Positions 14,104 to 57,613 of a DNA stretch of 64,000 nucleotides are shown piece after piece. The notes below the pieces were generated by a model. It had not been told where the DNA came from. It searched no databases and saw only the letters and a list, made by a program, of their open reading frames with translations. Within the stretch, counting starts at the first letter, position 1. Each line of letters begins with the position of its first letter. The DNA is from Haloarcula pelagica (GTDB lineage Archaea > Halobacteriota > Halobacteria > Halobacteriales > Haloarculaceae), in the NCBI RefSeq assembly GCF_030127105.1, contig NZ_CP126161.1, positions 3,348,001 to 3,412,000 on the forward strand, read 5' to 3'. The position numbers and the translations under genes were made by a program.

Positions 14104-15672
14104 TTAGTTCGACTCGGTCTCGGCGAGGCTCTGCTGTAGCGTGTCCATCGCCGACTGCGAGTCCGTCTCCTGCCCGACCGCGCGGTTGGCCTGCTGTGCG
14201 ATGTTGCTCTGCTGGTTGCTCCAGACGGCCGTGACCGGGCGAGCCATCGTGTTGTTCCCGGCGACGCGCAGCGTGTCCATGTAGCGGCCGACCGGCTCCT
14301 GCTCGCGAGCCGCGTCGGAGGCGAACAGCTCGGGCTTCGGCGGCAGCCAGCCCCAGATGTCCAGCATGTCCAGGTTGAACGAGTCCTGCATGATCGCGTC
14401 GTAGATCGCCAGCTGGGCTTCCTCCTTGTCGCTGTTGGGGTTTGCGGTCAGGTGCCAGCCACCGAGCGCCGAGGTCGTCCCACCGGTGCCGGGCTGTGCG
14501 GCCTCGGACTCGGGGACCGCGTAGGGAATCGGCATCGTGCCCAGGTCCTCGCCGAACGGCTCCGGATCGGAGTCGCTCTCGGCAGGGTCGGCGCCGCTGA
14601 TCGAGATCGCGTACGGCCAGTTGCGGTGGAAGACCGCGTTCCCCGACGCGAACGGTGCACGCGAGGTCTCCTCTGTCCAGCCGAGGATCTCCTGTGGCGT
14701 GAAGCCGCCACCGTAGTCGGAGAACTCGCCGCCGAACTCCTCGTCGTGGACGAACTTCCGCATCATGTTGAGCGACTGGACCGTCTCGGGCTCGTTGACC
14801 GTGATCGGCCGGTCGCCGACGGGGCCAAAGAGGTTGTCCCGGCCGCCGAAGTAGGCGCCGCCCCACGAGGACATGACCTCGTTGAACGTACAGCAGGCGG
14901 TCCCGACGTAGATGTCCCACTGGGTCGTGAAGCCGTAGTCGACGCCGGAGTTCTCCTGCACGTCGGCCGCGATGTTGGACCACTCCTGCCAGGTCATCGG
15001 CTCGGTCGCCCAGTTGTTCGACTCGGGGCTGTAGCCGGCCTCCTCGACGAGGTCTTTGCGGTAGAGCATCGTCGGGAAGTCCGGGAACATCGGGACGCCG
15101 AACAGGTCGCCGCTGGACGGGTCGCGTGCCGTCGCGGTGAACGCGCTGAAGTAGTCCGACTCGACCGTCGACAGCATGTCGTCGCTGAAGAAGTCGGCGC
15201 TCAGGTTCTTGATGAGGCCACGCTGGATGAAGATGTTCGTCCAGCCGTTGTCCATCAGGAACAGGTCCGGGGAGGTCTCACCGGCGCTCAGCAGTCGGTT
15301 GTAGTTGGCGCGTGCCGCGCCAGTGTCCTGGTCCCGCGGGACGAAACTGATCTCGATGTTGTCCGGGACGCCGGCGTCGCGGAAGGCCTGCCGGACTTCC
15401 TCTTCGGCGTTCTGGAGGATGACCGGATCGAACCCGATCTCGACCGTCGTCGAGCCGCCGCCGTTTCCGCCGCCGCTTCCGGAACTGCCGCCGTCGCCAC
15501 CGGAGCCACCGTCACCGCCAGAGCCGCCGTCGCCGCCCGAACCACCGGAACCGCCATCGCTCGCACAGCCCGCCAATCCTGCGACGACACCGGTTGCCCC
15601 AGCCGCCTGGACGAACCGCCGCCGCGAAACACCGTGCTTTCCACTGTCACCTGTCGTGCCGTTGTCCGACAT
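14104..15672 (-). CDS. sugar ABC transporter substrate-binding lipoprotein (copy 2)
   Basis: 522 aa. The Tat signal and lipobox 'SRRRFVQAAGATGVVAGLAGC' are followed by a Gly/Ser/Asp tether and a family-1 solute-binding fold ('ETSPDLFLMDNGWTNIFIQR', later 'WPYAISISGAD'), as in maltose/trehalose/oligosaccharide receptors. It heads the operon binding protein - MalF - MalG - ATPase - small membrane protein - oxidoreductase. Minus-strand TATA-like CTTTAAG is at 15701-15707, ~30 bp before the ATG (near-leaderless), and an ACCAC-GGGT-GTTGT site lies ~15 bp further upstream. It is larger than copy 1 and only distantly similar. Confidence 0.92.
   Translation of the reverse strand: MSDNGTTGDSGKHGVSRRRFVQAAGATGVVAGLAGCASDGGSGGSGGDGGSGGDGGSGGDGGSSGSGGGNGGGSTTVEIGFDPVILQNAEEEVRQAFRDAGVPDNIEISFVPRDQDTGAARANYNRLLSAGETSPDLFLMDNGWTNIFIQRGLIKNLSADFFSDDMLSTVESDYFSAFTATARDPSSGDLFGVPMFPDFPTMLYRKDLVEEAGYSPESNNWATEPMTWQEWSNIAADVQENSGVDYGFTTQWDIYVGTACCTFNEVMSSWGGAYFGGRDNLFGPVGDRPITVNEPETVQSLNMMRKFVHDEEFGGEFSDYGGGFTPQEILGWTEETSRAPFASGNAVFHRNWPYAISISGADPAESDSDPEPFGEDLGTMPIPYAVPESEAAQPGTGGTTSALGGWHLTANPNSDKEEAQLAIYDAIMQDSFNLDMLDIWGWLPPKPELFASDAAREQEPVGRYMDTLRVAGNNTMARPVTAVWSNQQSNIAQQANRAVGQETDSQSAMDTLQQSLAETESN
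15452..15560 (-). repeat. tandem repeats coding a Gly/Ser tether
   Basis: Imperfect 9-15 bp tandem units code for GGDGGSG blocks between the lipobox Cys and the binding fold of the copy-2 binding protein, parallel to the repeat at 7962-8084. Confidence 0.7.
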
Positions 15673-26151: not shown

Positions 26152-26255
26152 AGACGGGCGTCCGTACTCCTGGCTGGCACTTAAGGATGTACCGCAACCA
26201 CGTGGGGAGCAGCCGGCACCGGTGGGTTCTTCGCCCAGGCGAGAGACGTTCCGAC

Positions 26256-27360: not shown

Positions 27361-27375
27361 TACAACTCGGTTGTA
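27361..27375. promoter_or_regulatory. palindrome TACAAC-TCG-GTTGTA before the symporter operon
   Basis: Perfect 6-bp arms with a 3-bp centre, ending 14 bp before the first start of the operon (27390). The arms match the ACAAC/GTTGT arms of the sugar motif but the spacer is 3, not 4, so a different or related regulator may bind. Position next to the start suggests repression. Confidence 0.5.
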
Positions 27376-27389
27376 TCACTAGTGAATAC

Positions 27390-27605
27390 ATGCGAGACAA
27401 CCGACTACACACCGTTCTGTGGGCCGCGTTTTGCGGTCTGTTCGCCGTCTTCGCCGGCGCAGTGGCGCTCCCGGTTCGCCCGCTCGTGGGCGTCCTGCCG
27501 GCGTGGGCTGTCGTCATCGGAAGCGCGATCGTGACGATGGCAGCGGTCGCGGCGGCCGTCGCGCGGGCGGGGTGGCCGGCACGACCGGGTGAGTCACCCC
27601 GATGA
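27390..27605 (+). CDS. small two-helix membrane protein ahead of the sodium symporter
   Basis: 71 aa with two hydrophobic helices (about 8-30 and 35-60). Small membrane proteins of this size (DUF3311-like) are often encoded directly before SSS-family symporters and may be accessory subunits. The stop overlaps the symporter start (ATGA at 27602). I cannot confirm the family by eye. Confidence 0.7.
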   Translation: MRDNRLHTVLWAAFCGLFAVFAGAVALPVRPLVGVLPAWAVVIGSAIVTMAAVAAAVARAGWPARPGESPR

Positions 27606-29065
27606 GTGCCGTCGCGCTCGCGCTGATGGGCGCTTACCTCCTCGTGACGCTGGGTATCGGCGTCTACGGCTACCGGCGGACGGGCACCTCGCCACACGAG
27701 TACTTCCTCGCCGGCGGCTCGCTCGGGCGGCTCGTCTTCCCGTTGACGATGTTCGCGACCCTGATGAGCGCCTTCGTGTTCCTCGGCAGCGCTGGCTTCG
27801 GCTACCGGCACGGGCTGGGGTGGCTGGCGCTGCTCGGTGTCGAGGCACTGGCGGTCGTCCCGCTGGCGGTGGTCGGCCTGCGGGCGTTCCGGCTCTCGCG
27901 TCGGGAGGGGTACGTCACGCCGACCGAGATGCTCGGTGATCTCCTCGGCAGCGACGCGGTGAAACTGCTCGTCGTCGCCGTCCAGTTCGCCTGGGCGATC
28001 CCCTACGTGGCGATCCAGGCGATGGGCGGGGGGATCATCTTCCGGACGATCTCCGGCGGCAGCGTCTCCTTTACTGCCGGCGCGGCGGTCGTTACCGTCG
28101 TCACCGCCGTCTACCTCGGCCTGGGCGGTCTCCGGAGTGTCGCCTGGTCGGACGCCCTCCAGGGCCTGACCGTCGTCGTCTTGCTCGTGGCGGCGCTCGT
28201 CTTCGTCGTCCCCGCAGTCGAACCCCTCGCGCTCACTCGACGGGTCGCCGCCGAGACCGACCGCTTCACACAGGTCGGACAGGCCGGTCTCTTCACCCCG
28301 CGGGTGTGGCTCTCCTTCCTGCTGATGAACACGATGGCGGTCGTCGCCTACCCGCAGTTGTTCCAGCGCTTCTTCGCGGCCACCGACGAGCGATCCTTCC
28401 GCGCGCTGCTGGCGTGGTGGCCCGTGATGGTGTTGCTCGCGGCAGTCGTCCCGACGCTGCTCGGCGTCTGGGGCGGGACAGTCCTCCCCGGGCTGGAGAC
28501 GCCGGATCAGGTCGTCCCGGCGCTCCTGCAGGCGTACACGCCGTCGGTCGTCGTCGGCGTCGTCATGGGCGGGGCGCTCGCGGCGATGATGAGCACGGCC
28601 GACTCGCTCGTGTTGACGCTGTCCTCGCTCGTGACCCGCGACATCTATCACGACCACGTGGCCGGCCCCGCATCCGACGACCGGACAGAGGTGTGGGTGA
28701 GCCGTGGCGTCGCCGTCGCGTTGCTGGCCGGCGGGTTCGGCCTGGCTCACGCCGCGACCGGGCGCGTTCCCGGAGTCGCCGCCGTCGGGACAATCGTCGA
28801 TCTCTCGGTGTACTTCATCCAGGGTAACGCCCTGCTGTTGCCGGTGTTCCTGGCGGCGCTGTACTGGCGGGGAGCGACGGCAGCGGGCGCCGTCGCCGCC
28901 GTCGTCGCCGGCCAGGGGTACTTCCTGGGGGCGACCTTCGCCGGCCTGCCGACCTTTCGTTTCCTCCCCTTCGTCCCCGCGCTGGCCGTGACGGTGCTGG
29001 CGCTGGGTGTCGGATCGCTACTGACCGACCGAACGCCGACTGTCCGCTCGGAGCCGGACGCATGA
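27602..29065 (+). CDS. sodium:solute symporter (SSS family)
   Basis: 487 aa, about 13 membrane helices. SSS features include the start 'YRRTGTSPHEYFLAGGSLGR', 'AWSDALQGLTVVVLLVAALV', and the conserved helix 'GGALAAMMSTADSLVLTLSS'. It uses the sodium gradient to import a solute, perhaps a carboxylate, amino acid or pantothenate-like compound. Overlaps at both ends (ATGA with the small membrane protein and with the LuxE-like gene) show a tight operon, so the imported compound is probably the substrate of the two enzymes that follow. Confidence 0.9.
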   Translation: MSAVALALMGAYLLVTLGIGVYGYRRTGTSPHEYFLAGGSLGRLVFPLTMFATLMSAFVFLGSAGFGYRHGLGWLALLGVEALAVVPLAVVGLRAFRLSRREGYVTPTEMLGDLLGSDAVKLLVVAVQFAWAIPYVAIQAMGGGIIFRTISGGSVSFTAGAAVVTVVTAVYLGLGGLRSVAWSDALQGLTVVVLLVAALVFVVPAVEPLALTRRVAAETDRFTQVGQAGLFTPRVWLSFLLMNTMAVVAYPQLFQRFFAATDERSFRALLAWWPVMVLLAAVVPTLLGVWGGTVLPGLETPDQVVPALLQAYTPSVVVGVVMGGALAAMMSTADSLVLTLSSLVTRDIYHDHVAGPASDDRTEVWVSRGVAVALLAGGFGLAHAATGRVPGVAAVGTIVDLSVYFIQGNALLLPVFLAALYWRGATAAGAVAAVVAGQGYFLGATFAGLPTFRFLPFVPALAVTVLALGVGSLLTDRTPTVRSEPDA

Positions 29066-30117
29066 ACCCGTACGCTCCCATCGAGATAGACCGAGACGCG
29101 TGGACCCGCCGCGTCGTCGAGACGCACTTCGACCCCGACACCGGGACGCCCTACTGGCTGGAGTGGGCGGCCGAACGGGGCCTCGACGTACGGGCGGCCG
29201 TCGACGGCTTCGACGACATCGAGCGCGTCTTCGGCTCGTTCGACGAGGACGTGCTCCGATCGCTCCCCGTCGAGCGGTTCCACCCGCAGTCGCTGTCGGG
29301 TCCCCGTCGCGTCTACGAGACCGGCGGGACGACCGGCGAGCCAAAACGGGTCGTGATGGCCGACTACTGGCGAAAGCAGGCCGCGTGGGCCGACCGGGTC
29401 CTGCCCGACGCGTTCCCGCGGGGGAACCTCCTGATGCTCGGCCCGCCCGGCGGCGCGAACAACGCCGGCGCGTTCGTCGAACACCTGGCCGACCGCTGGG
29501 ACGCGCTGCCCTTCTTCGTCAACATGGACCCCCGCTGGGCGAAACGGCTCGCGGACGAGCCCCGTCGGTTCGACGAGTACGTCGCCCACCTCGTCGAGCA
29601 GGCACAGCGCGTCGTCTCGACACAGGACGTGACGGTGCTGTTCACGACCGCGCAGCTGCTCGAACGACCCGCCGTGCGGGAGCTCGTCGCCGATTCGGGC
29701 ATCGACGCGGTGTATCACGGCGGGACGGCACTGGACTCCGACACACACCGGGTGTTCCGCGAGGAGTGGTACGCCGACGTGGCCGTCGCCGGCGAGTACG
29801 GTAACACGCTGATGGGCGTCGCACAGGAGGCCCCGCCGCAGCTCCGCGAGCCGGCGGCCCGGGCGTACAGCCTCGATTACGTCCCCTGCGAGCCGTACTT
29901 CGTCCCGGAAGTCGTCGACGACGGGGACACCGTCTCCTACGGCGAGCGCGGCCGTGTCCGGCTGACCGTCCTCAGCGAGGAGTTGTTCGTCCCGGGCCTC
30001 ACCGAGCGCGACAGTGCGGTGCGCGTCCGCGGCGAGGCCCCGCTGGAGTGGGACTGGCTCCGGGACCCGGGGACCGCCGAGGCGGCGACCGACCGGACGA
30101 CCGACGGCGTCTACTGA
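29062..30117 (+). CDS. LuxE/PaaK-like adenylate-forming acyl-activating enzyme
   Basis: 351 aa, smaller than a standard acyl-CoA synthetase. The phosphate-binding loop is 'ETGGTTGEPKRV' (86-97), and 'AGEYGNTLMG' (~255) fits the adenine/acyl-AMP region of LuxE/PaaK-type enzymes. LuxE activates a fatty acid with ATP and passes the acyl group on. It overlaps the symporter stop (ATGA) and the next start (TGATG), and the next gene is LuxC-like, which supports a LuxE-like role. Acyl substrate and acceptor are unknown. It could instead be a short phenylacetate-CoA ligase-type enzyme. Confidence 0.75.
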   Translation: MNPYAPIEIDRDAWTRRVVETHFDPDTGTPYWLEWAAERGLDVRAAVDGFDDIERVFGSFDEDVLRSLPVERFHPQSLSGPRRVYETGGTTGEPKRVVMADYWRKQAAWADRVLPDAFPRGNLLMLGPPGGANNAGAFVEHLADRWDALPFFVNMDPRWAKRLADEPRRFDEYVAHLVEQAQRVVSTQDVTVLFTTAQLLERPAVRELVADSGIDAVYHGGTALDSDTHRVFREEWYADVAVAGEYGNTLMGVAQEAPPQLREPAARAYSLDYVPCEPYFVPEVVDDGDTVSYGERGRVRLTVLSEELFVPGLTERDSAVRVRGEAPLEWDWLRDPGTAEAATDRTTDGVY

Positions 30118-31499
30118 TGACCGACCCGACGCTCCCGCTCGTCTCCGGTGGCGAGCGCGAGACGCGGCGGACGCGGACGCTGACCGGTATCGGCGGCGAC
30201 CTGAGGACGGTCGCACAGGCCCCGCGAGTCCGGGTCCACGACGCGGTCGAGACCGCCCGGGAGTCGGGCTTCGACGCGCTCGGGACGACGCCGGTCCGGG
30301 AACTGCTCGACCGGCTGGCCGACGCCGGTCGCCGGTTCGCCGGCCACGGGCCGCCCGACGATCTGGCCCCGGTCGCGGACTACGCGGAGCGGGTCGCCCG
30401 GGCGAGCGGCCTCCCGGTCGGCTGGGTGCGGACGAGCGTCCACTGGCTCGCTCGCGGCCTGCGCCACGCCGCCGAGGGCCTCCGAGCGCAGTCGCCGACC
30501 GGGGACCTCGGGGTGTACGACGATCCTGCATACGTCCGCGAGCGGGACGTGGGGCTGGCGTTCGCGCCCCGGATTCGCGTACTTGGCGGCGTCATGCCGG
30601 CCAACGACCCGGCGGTGTACGCCTGGCCGGCCCTCGCCGTGGCGATGAAGCTCCCGGTCGTCCTCCGGCCGTCCCGGCGGGACCCGTTCACCGCCGTTCG
30701 CCTCGCCCGGGCGCTGCTGGCCGCAGGCGTCCCCGAGTCGGCCGTCCACGTCCTGCCGGGCGACCGCTCGGTCGGCGAGACGGTCACCGCGCGGTCCGAC
30801 CACGCGCTCGTGTTCGGCGGCAGCGACGTGACGGCACGGTACCGCGACGACCCGACCGTCGAGACGTACGGTCCGGGCCGGTCGGTCGCCGTCCTCGCTC
30901 GCCAGCCCACCGACCGGGAACTGGACACCCTCGCCCGCGGGATCACGCGGGCCGGTGGCCGGACCTGTTTCAACCTCACCCGGATCGTCGCAGTCGAGGA
31001 CTGTGACGCCGACACACTCGCGGCTGCCCTCGCCGAGCGTGTCGTCGCCGCGACGGACGGCCCGGCCACCGACCCCGCGACCGATGTCCCGTCGTTCCCC
31101 GACCCCGACCGGGCGCGACGGATCGACGAGCTAGCTGAGGGGGCGGGCCAGGACGTGACCGCAGTGCTTCGATCGGGTCCCCGCCTCCGTGAGCACGGCG
31201 ACCACACGCGCCTCGGCCCGACCGTCGTCCGGAGCGACGAGTTCGTCGAGGAACTCCCCTTCCAGTTCGCCGGCGTCACGGAACGGTCGCAGTCGTCGCC
31301 GACGGAACTACTCCGGGCGCTCGACAGTGCGTATCTGGGTGTCGCCGTCGGCGACGACTACGAGGCGGCGATGGCCCGCTCGCCACGCGTCCGGAAGGTC
31401 TACGGGGGCGGCTACCCGGCGACTGTCGACCTCCGAGAGACTCACGAGACGTTCCTGGCCGAGTTCTGCTACGAGACCACCACGTACGACCCATCCTGA
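30117..31499 (+). CDS. LuxC-like acyl-CoA reductase / aldehyde dehydrogenase-fold protein
   Basis: 460 aa. The layout fits LuxC-type acyl-CoA reductases: helical N-terminal part, Rossmann region with 'VLGGVMPANDPA' and 'MKLPVVLRPSRRDPF', 'DHALVFGGSDVT', the putative catalytic Cys C284 in 'GGRTCFNLTRI', and a C-terminal 'KVYGGGYPATVDL'. LuxC reduces an activated acyl group to an aldehyde with NADPH through an acyl-Cys intermediate. The ATG overlaps the LuxE-like stop (TGATG), so the two are translationally coupled. No luciferase (luxAB) is nearby, so light emission is not implied. Confidence 0.75.
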   Translation: MTDPTLPLVSGGERETRRTRTLTGIGGDLRTVAQAPRVRVHDAVETARESGFDALGTTPVRELLDRLADAGRRFAGHGPPDDLAPVADYAERVARASGLPVGWVRTSVHWLARGLRHAAEGLRAQSPTGDLGVYDDPAYVRERDVGLAFAPRIRVLGGVMPANDPAVYAWPALAVAMKLPVVLRPSRRDPFTAVRLARALLAAGVPESAVHVLPGDRSVGETVTARSDHALVFGGSDVTARYRDDPTVETYGPGRSVAVLARQPTDRELDTLARGITRAGGRTCFNLTRIVAVEDCDADTLAAALAERVVAATDGPATDPATDVPSFPDPDRARRIDELAEGAGQDVTAVLRSGPRLREHGDHTRLGPTVVRSDEFVEELPFQFAGVTERSQSSPTELLRALDSAYLGVAVGDDYEAAMARSPRVRKVYGGGYPATVDLRETHETFLAEFCYETTTYDPS

Positions 31500-31552: not shown

Positions 31553-32065
31553 TCAGTTCAGCACGACGAACCGGTAGTTCAACAGGACCGCGAAGCTCAC
31601 CCACAGGAAGTACGGGACGAGCAGCCCGCCGGCCCGGCGATCGATCCGCCAGAACGTCCAGAGTGTCGGCACCAGCACGAGCCACAGGCCCGCGACGACG
31701 GCGAGGGCGACGGTGAGGTCCTGGGCCGAGAAGAACGTCGGCGTCCACGCGACGTTGACGGCCATCTGGGCGACGAACAGCCGGAGCGCGACGACCCCCC
31801 GAGTCGTCGTCCGGGCGTCCCGCCAGACGACGTACAGCGCGACTCCCATGAGCGTGAACAACAGCGGCCAGACCACGCCGAACACCCACGGCGGCGGGTA
31901 GATCGCGGGCTTGGCGAGCGACTGAAACCACGCCGTGTTCGGCCCGCCGAGTACTGCCGGCAGCGCGCCGACGACGTTGACGAGGACGACGGCCACGACG
32001 GCGCCCGGGAGGTCGCCTCTGTCGAGTGTCGGCCGCCGCCGACCGGTTTCGTCGTGGTCGCTCAT
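31553..32065 (-). CDS. tspO: TspO/MBR-family membrane protein
   Basis: 170 aa, five membrane helices. The signature 'WFQSLAKPAIYPPPWVFGVV' (46-65) and 'VNVAWTPTFF' are those of TspO tryptophan-rich sensory proteins, which bind porphyrins and affect tetrapyrrole and oxygen/light responses. Start taken at ATG 32065; a longer frame to 32248 overlaps the SDR gene and is basic. It is on the minus strand, 40 bp after the SDR gene, and convergent with the LuxC-like gene. Confidence 0.9.
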   Translation of the reverse strand: MSDHDETGRRRPTLDRGDLPGAVVAVVLVNVVGALPAVLGGPNTAWFQSLAKPAIYPPPWVFGVVWPLLFTLMGVALYVVWRDARTTTRGVVALRLFVAQMAVNVAWTPTFFSAQDLTVALAVVAGLWLVLVPTLWTFWRIDRRAGGLLVPYFLWVSFAVLLNYRFVVLN

Positions 32066-32105: not shown

Positions 32106-32876
32106 TCAGTCCAGCGCCATGCCGCCGTCGACGCGGAGCACTTCGCCGGTGACGAACTCGTGGGTGAGCAGGAACCGGACGGCGCTCGCCACCTCCGCCG
32201 GCTGGGCGGCGTAGCGGTCCAACAGCGTGTCGACCGTCTCGTGGCCACGGAACCGCCGCTCCTCCAGGGACTCGACGATGGCGTCGTTCATCGGTGTCTC
32301 GACCGGTCCCGGCGCGACGACGTTCGCCCGCACGCCCTCGGGACCGAGTTCGCGAGCCAGCCCTCTGACGTACCCCTCCAGCCCGCTCTTGGACGCGGCG
32401 TAGGCCGTGTCGACCGTTCCCAGGGTCGCCGCGACGCTGGAGACGGCGACGACTGCCCCGCCCTCGCCGGCCCCGGTGTCGGTCCCCGTCTGCAGCCGCT
32501 CGACGGCCGGTCTGAGGACGTTCGCGGCGCCGGCGACGTTGACCGCCAGGTGTCGGTCCAGGTCGGTCGCCGTCTGCTGGTCGACCGCACTGGAGTCGGT
32601 GTAGCCGGCACAGGTGACGACCGCGCCCAGCGGCCCGAGTTCGGCCCCGGCACCGACGAGGTCGGCGGCTGCGGACTCGTCGGTCACGTCGGCCTCGACG
32701 GCGCGAGCGATCACGCCGTGGGATTCGGCACGCTCGACGGCGGTCGTCGCGCTCTCCTCGTCCGTGTGATAGCCGACCGCCACGTCCGCGCCGGCGCGGG
32801 CGAGGGCCGCGACGACCGCCCGCCCGATCGGTCCCGACCCCCCGGAGACGACCGCGGCGCTGTCTGTCAGGTCCAT
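32106..32876 (-). CDS. short-chain dehydrogenase/reductase (FabG-like)
   Basis: 256 aa. Nucleotide-binding 'SGGSGPIGRA' (11-20), structural N113 in 'AVNVAG', catalytic S146/S147, Y159 and K163 ('AYAASKSG'), and a C-terminal 'EVLRVDGGMALD' typical of FabG-like enzymes. It probably reduces a beta-keto or ring carbonyl with NADPH. Substrate not predictable. It lies just downstream of the Gins51 gene (37 bp), possibly by read-through. Confidence 0.9.
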   Translation of the reverse strand: MDLTDSAAVVSGGSGPIGRAVVAALARAGADVAVGYHTDEESATTAVERAESHGVIARAVEADVTDESAAADLVGAGAELGPLGAVVTCAGYTDSSAVDQQTATDLDRHLAVNVAGAANVLRPAVERLQTGTDTGAGEGGAVVAVSSVAATLGTVDTAYAASKSGLEGYVRGLARELGPEGVRANVVAPGPVETPMNDAIVESLEERRFRGHETVDTLLDRYAAQPAEVASAVRFLLTHEFVTGEVLRVDGGMALD

Positions 32877-32913: not shown

Positions 32914-33852
32914 TCACTCCAGCGGTTCGGCCGCGTCCTGCTCGACGAGGGGGTCGGCGTTGTCGGCCGGCAGCGTCACCACGTCGTCGGCCGAGAGGTC
33001 GTACTCGCGCTGGTCGACGCCGAGTATCTCGCCCACGTCGGCCGTGATCCGGACCGTCCGGCGGTCGACGGTCGTCTCGCCGCCGTCCGGTTCCGGCCGC
33101 GGGTCGGCCGTGGAGTGGGCGGCCGATTCGCCCCGCGGGTCCGACTCCGACGGCGGGGACTGCTCGGGTGGCTCGTCGTCCGCGACGACTGCGGCCTCGT
33201 GTGCCGGCCGGTCGGTGCCGTCGTCGGTCCCCGAGGCGGCGTCGGGACCGTCGTCGGACCGGCCCGAATCACCGCCCATCAGGTCCGCCGCGTCGACGCT
33301 CGGCTCTGGTGTCTGTTCGGAACTGGGCTCGTCCGGCTCCGCGGTCCCCGTCTCCCGATCCGCCGTCGGCGACCGCTGTTCGGTCCCGCCCGTCGATTCC
33401 GCACTCGCGTCGGCGCTCCCGGTGTCCGGGCTGGACTGTTGCCCGTCGACGGCCCCGGTGGGGGCCTCGCCGGCGATGACATCCAGCACGTGCTGGCGGT
33501 TGTCCTCGATCGCCGTCACGAGCGTCTCGAACAGGCCCCGTTCCTCCTGTGTCAGTCCGCCGTCCTCGGTAGGCATGTCCGCCGCCGCCAGCGAGGCCAT
33601 CTTGACGATCTTCCCGACACGGCGCTCGTAGATCGCCTCGACGGTCTGTTCGGCGGTCTTGATGTCGTCGGTGAGGCGGTTGACCTCCGGGGCGTCGAAT
33701 GGGTCCTCGGCGCGTTCGGCCGCGCGCTCGCGCTCCTCCCGGAGCTGGTTGACGAACTGGCCAGCCTCCTCGTAGAACGTGGGGCGCAGCTGCTGGAGCT
33801 GGTCCGTCTGGCGCTCCCGGGACTGCACCGACTGGAGTTCGTCGAGGTTCAT
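32914..33852 (-). CDS. GINS complex subunit Gins51 (haloarchaeal)
   Basis: 312 aa. N-terminal helical GINS A domain (1-~110, 'MNLDELQSVQSRERQTDQLQ', 'RRVGKIVKMASLAA'), a long acidic Ser/Glu/Asp-rich linker (~115-255) and a short C-terminal B domain (~256-312, 'RTVRITADVGEILGVDQREY'). GINS links MCM and Cdc45/RecJ at the replication fork and contacts primase. The start overlaps the priS stop (ATGA), the conserved archaeal priS-gins arrangement, which strongly supports the call. Only one GINS type is typical of haloarchaea, acting as a homotetramer. Confidence 0.88.
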   Translation of the reverse strand: MNLDELQSVQSRERQTDQLQQLRPTFYEEAGQFVNQLREERERAAERAEDPFDAPEVNRLTDDIKTAEQTVEAIYERRVGKIVKMASLAAADMPTEDGGLTQEERGLFETLVTAIEDNRQHVLDVIAGEAPTGAVDGQQSSPDTGSADASAESTGGTEQRSPTADRETGTAEPDEPSSEQTPEPSVDAADLMGGDSGRSDDGPDAASGTDDGTDRPAHEAAVVADDEPPEQSPPSESDPRGESAAHSTADPRPEPDGGETTVDRRTVRITADVGEILGVDQREYDLSADDVVTLPADNADPLVEQDAAEPLE

Positions 33853-56080: not shown

Positions 56081-57613
56081 ATGACAGGTCAGTCAGACAG
56101 CGAGTTACACCACTACGTCGGCGGCGAGTGGGTACCGAGCGATGCGGGGGAGACCTTCGAGACGGTCAACCCGGCCACCGGCGACACCGTGGCGACGGTC
56201 CACCGGGGATCGGCGTCGGAGATCGACCGGGCGGTGACCGCCGCCCGCGAGGCCGCCGCCGACTGGCGCGCCCTGTCGTACATCGACCGGGCGGCGTTCC
56301 TCTGGGAGATCTACCACGAACTCCGCGAACGGACCGGCGAACTCGGTGCGATGGTCTCCCGGGAGTGTGGTAAGGAGATCAGCGAGGGGCGAGCGGACGT
56401 GGTCGAGGCCGCCCACATGGTCGAACTGGCCGCGGGCAACGCTCGCCACCCCCACGGCGACGTGGTCCCCTCCGAGGTCGCCAGCAAGGACTCGTACATG
56501 CGCCGGCGCCCGCGGGGGGTCGTCGGCTGTATCACCCCGTGGAACTTCCCGGTCGCCATCCCGTTCTGGCACATGGCGACCGCGCTGGTCGAGGGCAACA
56601 CGGTCGTCTGGAAGCCCGCCGAACAGACGCCCTACTGCGCCCAGATCGTCGCGGAGATGTTCGACGACACCTCGATCCCCGATGGCGTCTTCAACCTCGT
56701 GCAGGGCTACGGCGACGCCGGCAACGCCGTCGTCGAGGACGACCGCGTCGACACCGTCCTGTTCACCGGGAGCGCACAGGTCGGCCACAGCATCGACGAG
56801 GCCATCGGTGGCCGGCCGGGCCGGAACGCCTGCTGTGAGATGGGCGGCAAGAACGCCATCGTCGTCACCGAACACGCCGATCTGGACATCGCCGTCCACT
56901 CGGCGGTGATGTCCAGTTTCAAGACGACCGGCCAGCGGTGTGTCTCCAGCGAGCGCCTGTTCGTCCACACCGACGTGTACGATGCGTTCAGGGAACGGTT
57001 CGTCGACCTGGCCGAGCGCGTGACCGTCGGCGATCCGCTGGAGGAGGAGACGTTCATGGGACCGCTCGTCGACCGCGAGCAGGTCGAGAAGTTCGGCCGC
57101 TTCAACGACATGGTTCGGAACGCCGAGGCGACGGTGCTCGTCGACCGCGAGGACCTCTCGGCCGAGGAACTCCCCGCGGGTCACGAGGCGGGTTTCTGGG
57201 TCGGCCCGTTCGTCTACGAGGTCTCGCCCGACACCGACCTCTCGGCGTACCACCAGGAGGTGTTCGGCCCGCACGTCGCCCTGGTCGAGTACGAGGGCGA
57301 CATCGAGCGGGCGGTCGCGCTCCAGAACGACACCGACTACGGCCTCGCAGGCGCCGTCGTCTCGGAGGACTACCGGCAACTGCACTACTACCGCGACCAC
57401 GCCGAGGTCGGCCTGGCCTACGCGAACCTCCCGTGTATCGGCGCGGAAGTGCAGTTGCCCTTCGGCGGCGTCAAGCGGTCCGGAAGCGGGCCGCCCCACG
57501 GCCGCGAGGTCATCGACGCCGTCACCGAACGGACGGCGTGGACGCTCAACAACTCGAAAGAGATTCGGATGGCACAGGGACTCTCGGCCGACATCGCCAC
57601 TGACGAGGAGTGA
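56081..57613 (+). CDS. NAD(P)-dependent aldehyde dehydrogenase
   Basis: 510 aa. Catalytic C287 in 'TTGQRCVSSERL', general-base region 'CCEMGGKNAIVV', and cofactor segment 'ITPWNFPVAIPFWHMATALV'. The end 'LPFGGVKRSGSGPPHGREVI' is typical. The closest style is semialdehyde dehydrogenases of class 7 or alpha-ketoglutarate semialdehyde type; the substrate cannot be fixed from sequence. It has its own promoter and lies 73 bp after CDC48. Confidence 0.9.
   Translation: MTGQSDSELHHYVGGEWVPSDAGETFETVNPATGDTVATVHRGSASEIDRAVTAAREAAADWRALSYIDRAAFLWEIYHELRERTGELGAMVSRECGKEISEGRADVVEAAHMVELAAGNARHPHGDVVPSEVASKDSYMRRRPRGVVGCITPWNFPVAIPFWHMATALVEGNTVVWKPAEQTPYCAQIVAEMFDDTSIPDGVFNLVQGYGDAGNAVVEDDRVDTVLFTGSAQVGHSIDEAIGGRPGRNACCEMGGKNAIVVTEHADLDIAVHSAVMSSFKTTGQRCVSSERLFVHTDVYDAFRERFVDLAERVTVGDPLEEETFMGPLVDREQVEKFGRFNDMVRNAEATVLVDREDLSAEELPAGHEAGFWVGPFVYEVSPDTDLSAYHQEVFGPHVALVEYEGDIERAVALQNDTDYGLAGAVVSEDYRQLHYYRDHAEVGLAYANLPCIGAEVQLPFGGVKRSGSGPPHGREVIDAVTERTAWTLNNSKEIRMAQGLSADIATDEE

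Follow-up and report, generated by a model that had tools for sequence, protein, structure and literature searches.

A candidate five-gene haloarchaeal module for the uptake and reduction of a carboxylic acid

Four overlapping genes in Haloarcula pelagica, encoding a small membrane protein, a sodium symporter, an acid-adenylating enzyme and a putative reductase, raise the question of which acid such a unit might take in and what it would make of it. The preliminary description of this DNA likened the two enzymes to LuxE and LuxC and proposed that a carboxylate is taken up, activated and reduced to an aldehyde. We examined the genes within the 64,000-nucleotide stretch that contains them (hereafter the window) and compared them with their relatives in other genomes. 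Uptake, activation and reduction to an aldehyde remain the best reading, and the enzyme pair travels together, but the fatty-acid Lux identity did not hold. We consider it probable that the locus is a horizontally acquired module of five genes, by which an imported carboxylic acid is reduced to an aldehyde and then to an alcohol.

Layout of the unit

The four genes described previously lie on the forward strand between 27390 and 31499 and overlap at junctions that read, in order, ATGA, ATGA and TGATG, as had been reported. The four ORFs have no internal stops, and their GC content by codon position follows the norm of the region. The two loops named in the earlier account, one of them bearing a Cys, are likewise present in the enzymes to which they were assigned. 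That account overlooked a fifth conserved gene, which encodes an SDR oxidoreductase on the opposite strand; the four genes are real, but incomplete as a unit. The features of the region are as follows.

27390..27605, + strand: small membrane protein, 71 aa, with two hydrophobic stretches; probable symporter accessory subunit
27602..29065, + strand: SSS sodium:solute symporter, PanF-like, 487 aa (PF00474, 6.7e-36)
29062..30117, + strand: predicted EhpF-family acid-adenylating enzyme of the ANL fold, 351 aa, carrying ETGGTTGEPKR
30117..31499, + strand: putative ALDH-fold acyl-reductase of the type that neighbours EhpF, 460 aa (PF00171, 2.5e-18), carrying GGRTCFN
31553..32065, - strand: TspO/MBR protein (PF03073, 1.9e-40), a resident gene probably outside the unit
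32106..32876, - strand: SDR oxidoreductase, the fifth member and a candidate aldehyde-to-alcohol reductase, convergent to the ALDH gene

A perfect inverted repeat, TACAAC-TCG-GTTGTA, is found at window positions 27361-27375, approximately 15-29 bases upstream of the first gene. We rejected an operator role for this palindrome, which is imperfect already in the nearest copy of the unit.

The best NCBIfam model for the symporter is PanF, with a score of 172 bits against a cut-off of 328, and its assignment as the PanF pantothenate symporter (TIGR02119) was accordingly rejected; to our knowledge, the substrates of SSS transporters cannot be read from sequence. The small membrane protein matched no Pfam family. 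A homologue occupies the same position in all nine of the other haloarchaeal loci considered below, and from its sequence and placement the protein is a probable accessory subunit of the symporter. We also tried to identify it with DUF3311, which precedes the symporter in operons of PVC bacteria, and rejected this assignment (hhalign probability 2.7%).

The enzyme pair and its known relatives

A phmmer search of the PDB matched the adenylating enzyme to the EhpF structures 3l2k and 3hgu at 6e-37, over residues 11-343 of 351 and with about 31% identity. The AlphaFold model of the protein (mean pLDDT 86) has EhpF as its top structural match (TM 0.75-0.78), followed by PaaK and other aryl-acid adenylases that are about 75-85 residues longer. 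The C-terminal ANL domain is the part of such enzymes that performs CoA transfer. The greater length of the PaaK-type neighbours, taken with the full-length match to EhpF, argues that the window enzyme is an EhpF-family protein, predicted to have the ANL fold but to lack the CoA-thioester-forming C-terminal domain.

EhpF itself comes from the D-alanylgriseoluteic acid phenazine cluster of Pantoea agglomerans. It shares its fold, and the lack of the ANL C-terminal domain, with the window enzyme, and it is encoded directly before the ALDH EhpG, just as the window pair is adjacent and belongs to the same families; identity across the two pairs is about 31% for the adenylating enzymes and 25% for the reductases. 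The remainder of the archaeal unit differs from the Ehp cluster, in that there are no phz genes, a symporter replaces the exporter, and the SDR is of another kind. At 25% identity, the window SDR was rejected as an orthologue of EhpK.

The reductase model (pLDDT 88) has an ALDH fold. Every relative that we examined retains the catalytic Cys, which is Cys284 in the window protein, along with the Glu that binds the cofactor. At the position of the general-base Glu, for which an ordinary ALDH encoded elsewhere in the window (56081-57613) served as the alignment reference, the haloarchaeal reductases carry Tyr and the bacterial relatives examined carry His, as does a divergent haloarchaeal copy (L024). 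The window protein thus retains the Cys of a hydrolytic ALDH, but its Glu has been replaced. Acylating aldehyde dehydrogenases also lack this Glu, and one of them has His in its place (PMC4762007). Because the Cys is kept and the Glu lost as in those enzymes, the residues fit the reduction of activated acids over the oxidation of aldehydes.

The same residues bear on the direction of the pathway. We regard it as quite improbable that the unit is catabolic, with the SDR and the ALDH oxidising an alcohol or aldehyde and leaving the adenylating enzyme only to handle the product acid. Gene order alone does not give the direction, and genes for an amine oxidase, a dehalogenase and an IclR protein are found close to the Halalkalicoccus copy, as might be expected of a catabolic unit; however, the lost general base speaks against hydrolytic oxidation, and where no CoA-forming domain is present, spending ATP on a product acid would be a waste.

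As to the proposed Lux identity, an HMM search of the kind that the preliminary description had called for gave no match at E<=10 between the window proteins and PF04443 (LuxE), or between the 30117-31499 protein and PF05893 (LuxC), so that neither enzyme is placed in a Lux family; the first is closest to EhpF by both sequence and structure, and the second matches PF00171 instead. PF05893 is itself weakly specific, because its sole match in the same genome at E<=0.001 is the ordinary ALDH at 56081-57613 (+). Structural prediction, also called for, put EhpF first among the matches of the adenylating enzyme and gave an ALDH fold for the reductase. The absence of Lux matches, named in the preliminary description as part of what would refute it, counts against the Lux identity. 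It does not make these enzymes ordinary, since the ligase lacks its C-terminal domain and the ALDH its Glu base.

What the pair has in common with LuxE and LuxC is the overall chemistry, from acyl adenylate to Cys-bound acyl group to aldehyde; the window unit otherwise differs from the bioluminescence system in having neither a luciferase nor an acyl-transferase. This shared logic of an adenylating enzyme with a Cys-dependent reductase, and the score of 22.5 bits (barely above the cut-off) of the divergent L024 reductase to PF05893, are what would favour a pair that makes fatty aldehydes destined for a lipid or a surface molecule. Given the missing profile matches of the window proteins, the low specificity of PF05893, and best matches that are EhpF and the aryl-acid adenylases, we consider such fatty-acid reduction very improbable.

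Carboxylic acid reduction by an adenylating enzyme and a reductase is known in other forms as well. In CARs, A, PCP and R are fused into one protein, the reductase domain of which is of the SDR type; CARs resemble the proposed pathway in their ATP- and NADPH-dependent reduction of an acid to an aldehyde, but the window pair consists of two separate ORFs, without a carrier domain and with an ALDH-fold reductase. A closer likeness is offered by GriC and GriD of the grixazone pathway of Streptomyces griseus, which are described as a separate AMP-binding protein and reductase that together form a carboxylic acid reductase for 3-amino-4-hydroxybenzoate, yielding the aldehyde (PMC10179220, citing Suzuki 2007). 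The window pair has this layout: an adenylating enzyme adjacent to an ALDH-fold reductase, with no carrier domain. The likeness to GriC/GriD is one of description, and the two systems differ in that GriC/GriD serve an aryl antibiotic pathway with an endogenous substrate, whereas the window unit is linked to a symporter. We know of no dedicated uptake transporter for GriC/GriD. The closest pairs that have been characterised, EhpF with its neighbour and, as described there, GriC/GriD, work on aryl carboxylates.

Distribution and origin of the unit

Among 391 Halobacteria genomes, the EhpF-like gene is present at 63% identity or more in nine, from four genera; one additional genome, G301, carries a relative at 31%. 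The symporter at E<=1e-90 is found in exactly the nine unit-bearing genomes, all of which also have the SDR with an identity of at least 59%. With a Halomarina plasmid, these genomes provide ten loci, and all ten contain the five-gene set in the same order; the copy in Halalkalicoccus is also plasmid-borne. The conservation across haloarchaea that had been proposed as a check is therefore borne out, and an order kept in nine loci besides the window places the arrangement far beyond chance.

In every haloarchaeal copy, the SDR gene points towards the ALDH gene as its convergent neighbour; in the window, the TspO gene stands between the two. The window SDR is 57-60% identical to the linked copies (85% in one congener) but at most 40% identical to its best paralogues in the same genome, and two further relatives at 50% (G072 and G187) lie in unrelated contexts. 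It belongs to a FabG-like group that is diverse in function.

The flanks of the unit (a serine protease gene at 26187, a gene at about 33000 and the primase gene at 33849) are present without the five genes in six congeners. From this empty site, the simplest explanation is that the unit, including the SDR, was gained here horizontally. TspO lies beside the protease in two of these six congeners and is not found between the ALDH and SDR genes of the other unit-bearing lineages; it is probably a resident gene outside the unit.

Among bacteria, the phenazine clusters of Pantoea, E. coli and Burkholderia have a related ALDH gene immediately after that of the EhpF homologue, and the pair is also present in a Streptomyces cluster. 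EhpF copies on Streptomyces plasmids adjoin either PABA-type and isochorismate genes or genes for polyketide synthases and, more generally, bacterial plasmid copies with a readable context have genes for chorismate, aryl-acid biosynthesis or polyketides next to them.

A scan of species genomes for EhpF-like relatives yielded at least 582 matches. The best 80 of these are 34-41% identical to the window enzyme and come mostly from Verrucomicrobia, Planctomycetes and Acidobacteria. An ALDH gene is present in at least 64 of these 80 loci, with a symporter in at least 33-34, an iron alcohol dehydrogenase in at least 35 and BamB-like propeller proteins in at least 52; the counts derive from mechanical ORF calls on often short contigs and are lower bounds. 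Example operons (L107, L069 and L089, from the set L031-L110) contain genes for BamB-like propellers, DUF3311, an SSS symporter, the EhpF-like enzyme, the ALDH and the iron alcohol dehydrogenase, together with a further propeller and, in some, a HemN-like radical SAM protein and a small protein. The profile of the small protein has a weak best match (E=0.005) to 2nwi, which we take to be a chorismate-lyase-like protein.

These operons thus share the core pair with the window, and often a symporter and an alcohol dehydrogenase as well, but they use an iron alcohol dehydrogenase instead of an SDR and include the additional propeller, HemN-like and chorismate-lyase-like genes. Their symporter, too, seems to have been recruited separately: the haloarchaeal symporter is 35% identical to an SSS paralogue from its own genome versus 24-31% to the PVC symporters. 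With the paralogue the nearer relative, a symporter may have joined the enzyme pair more than once, and such repeated recruitment would be an independent argument that uptake belongs to the function. A quick tree placed the haloarchaeal sequences in a single group with full support and those of PVC bacteria and Acidobacteria in another, with the exact joins uncertain because of long branches.

Proposed pathway, substrate and purpose

We propose that the SSS symporter and its small partner would import a carboxylate together with Na+, a role that we find fairly likely. From its family, the EhpF-like enzyme would then use ATP to form the acyl adenylate, which is probably handed on without CoA because the ANL C-terminal domain is absent. 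The ALDH-fold partner, which family and residues suggest is a reductase, would take the acyl group on its Cys and, using NAD(P)H, convert it to the aldehyde; the loss of the Glu base makes this protein ill-suited to act as a normal aldehyde oxidase. That the pair converts an acid to an aldehyde is, in our judgement, highly likely. Finally, the SDR would reduce the aldehyde to an alcohol, filling the place of the iron alcohol dehydrogenase of PVC bacteria; this is the least certain step, towards which we lean only slightly.

For the substrate, the relationship to EhpF, the aryl-acid adenylases among the structural neighbours and the chorismate-related contexts in bacteria favour an aryl acid, which we think rather likely. 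Since sequence and structure both point to EhpF, an aryl acid is a likelier substrate than a fatty acid. The haloarchaeal units themselves showed no gene for making or degrading aromatic compounds. The substrate could instead be a short or polar aliphatic carboxylate (for example pantothenate-like, sugar-derived or sulfonated), whose reduction would serve assimilation or provide an electron sink. The nearest matches of the symporter are PanF-type and solute transporters, and the PVC iron alcohol dehydrogenases match lactaldehyde and sulfoacetaldehyde reductases, among others; yet all of these transporter and dehydrogenase matches fall below their curated cut-offs, and the bacterial plasmid copies of EhpF adjoin chorismate, aryl-acid or polyketide genes. 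We therefore judge an aliphatic substrate unlikely.

The enzymology proposed here could also serve another purpose, natural-product tailoring, in which the aldehyde or alcohol is built into a secreted metabolite for which the symporter only scavenges a precursor. The characterised relatives named above do come from antibiotic or pigment pathways, and the cluster that holds the divergent L024 pair also has glycosyltransferase, lysine-hydroxylase-like and AMP-binding genes. Against this, the haloarchaeal loci compared have no further biosynthetic gene conserved alongside the five, and we treat tailoring as a minority possibility deserving some weight.

The kind of two-protein reductase that we propose is already known, mainly from bacterial antibiotic pathways, and the part that seems new is the transporter-linked mobile unit in haloarchaea. 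In keeping with the preliminary description, we found no account of such a five-gene unit in the open-licence literature searched. More tentatively, and at somewhat less than an even chance, the haloarchaeal units (PanF-like symporter and SDR) and the PVC and Acidobacteria operons (another SSS symporter and an iron alcohol dehydrogenase) may be separate assemblies of one undescribed, transport-coupled acid-to-alcohol pathway around a CoA-independent two-protein aryl-acid reductase. If so, the two-protein carboxylic acid reductase would move from antibiotic biosynthesis to an apparent general uptake metabolism, with a scope of archaea and hundreds of uncharacterised PVC and Acidobacteria genomes. 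Annotations that the two enzymes probably carry (hypothetical, generic AMP-binding, aldehyde dehydrogenase) would be corrected, and a salt-tolerant enzyme pair that would work without a carrier protein could serve aldehyde production. The widespread PVC and Acidobacteria operon may prove more interesting than the haloarchaeal unit.

Two outlying loci are recorded here. A lone EhpF-like gene (G616:C151, L126, 2312-3328) comes from an archaeal MAG that is low in GC, belongs to another lineage and may be contaminated; the gene is beside apparent branched-chain amino-acid ABC transporter genes and has no partner on its short contig. The divergent EhpF/ALDH pair of L024 (G301:C7:48000-67000) is from a congener, and its neighbours encode an ABC transporter, a glycosyltransferase, asparagine-synthase-like and lysine-hydroxylase-like proteins, an FkbM methyltransferase and AMP-binding proteins. 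The region looks like a haloarchaeal natural-product cluster, possibly for a peptide, and includes an ORF (14624-14980) of 118 residues with about twelve FDSSYD repeats and the C-terminal sequence KKVLKQAC.
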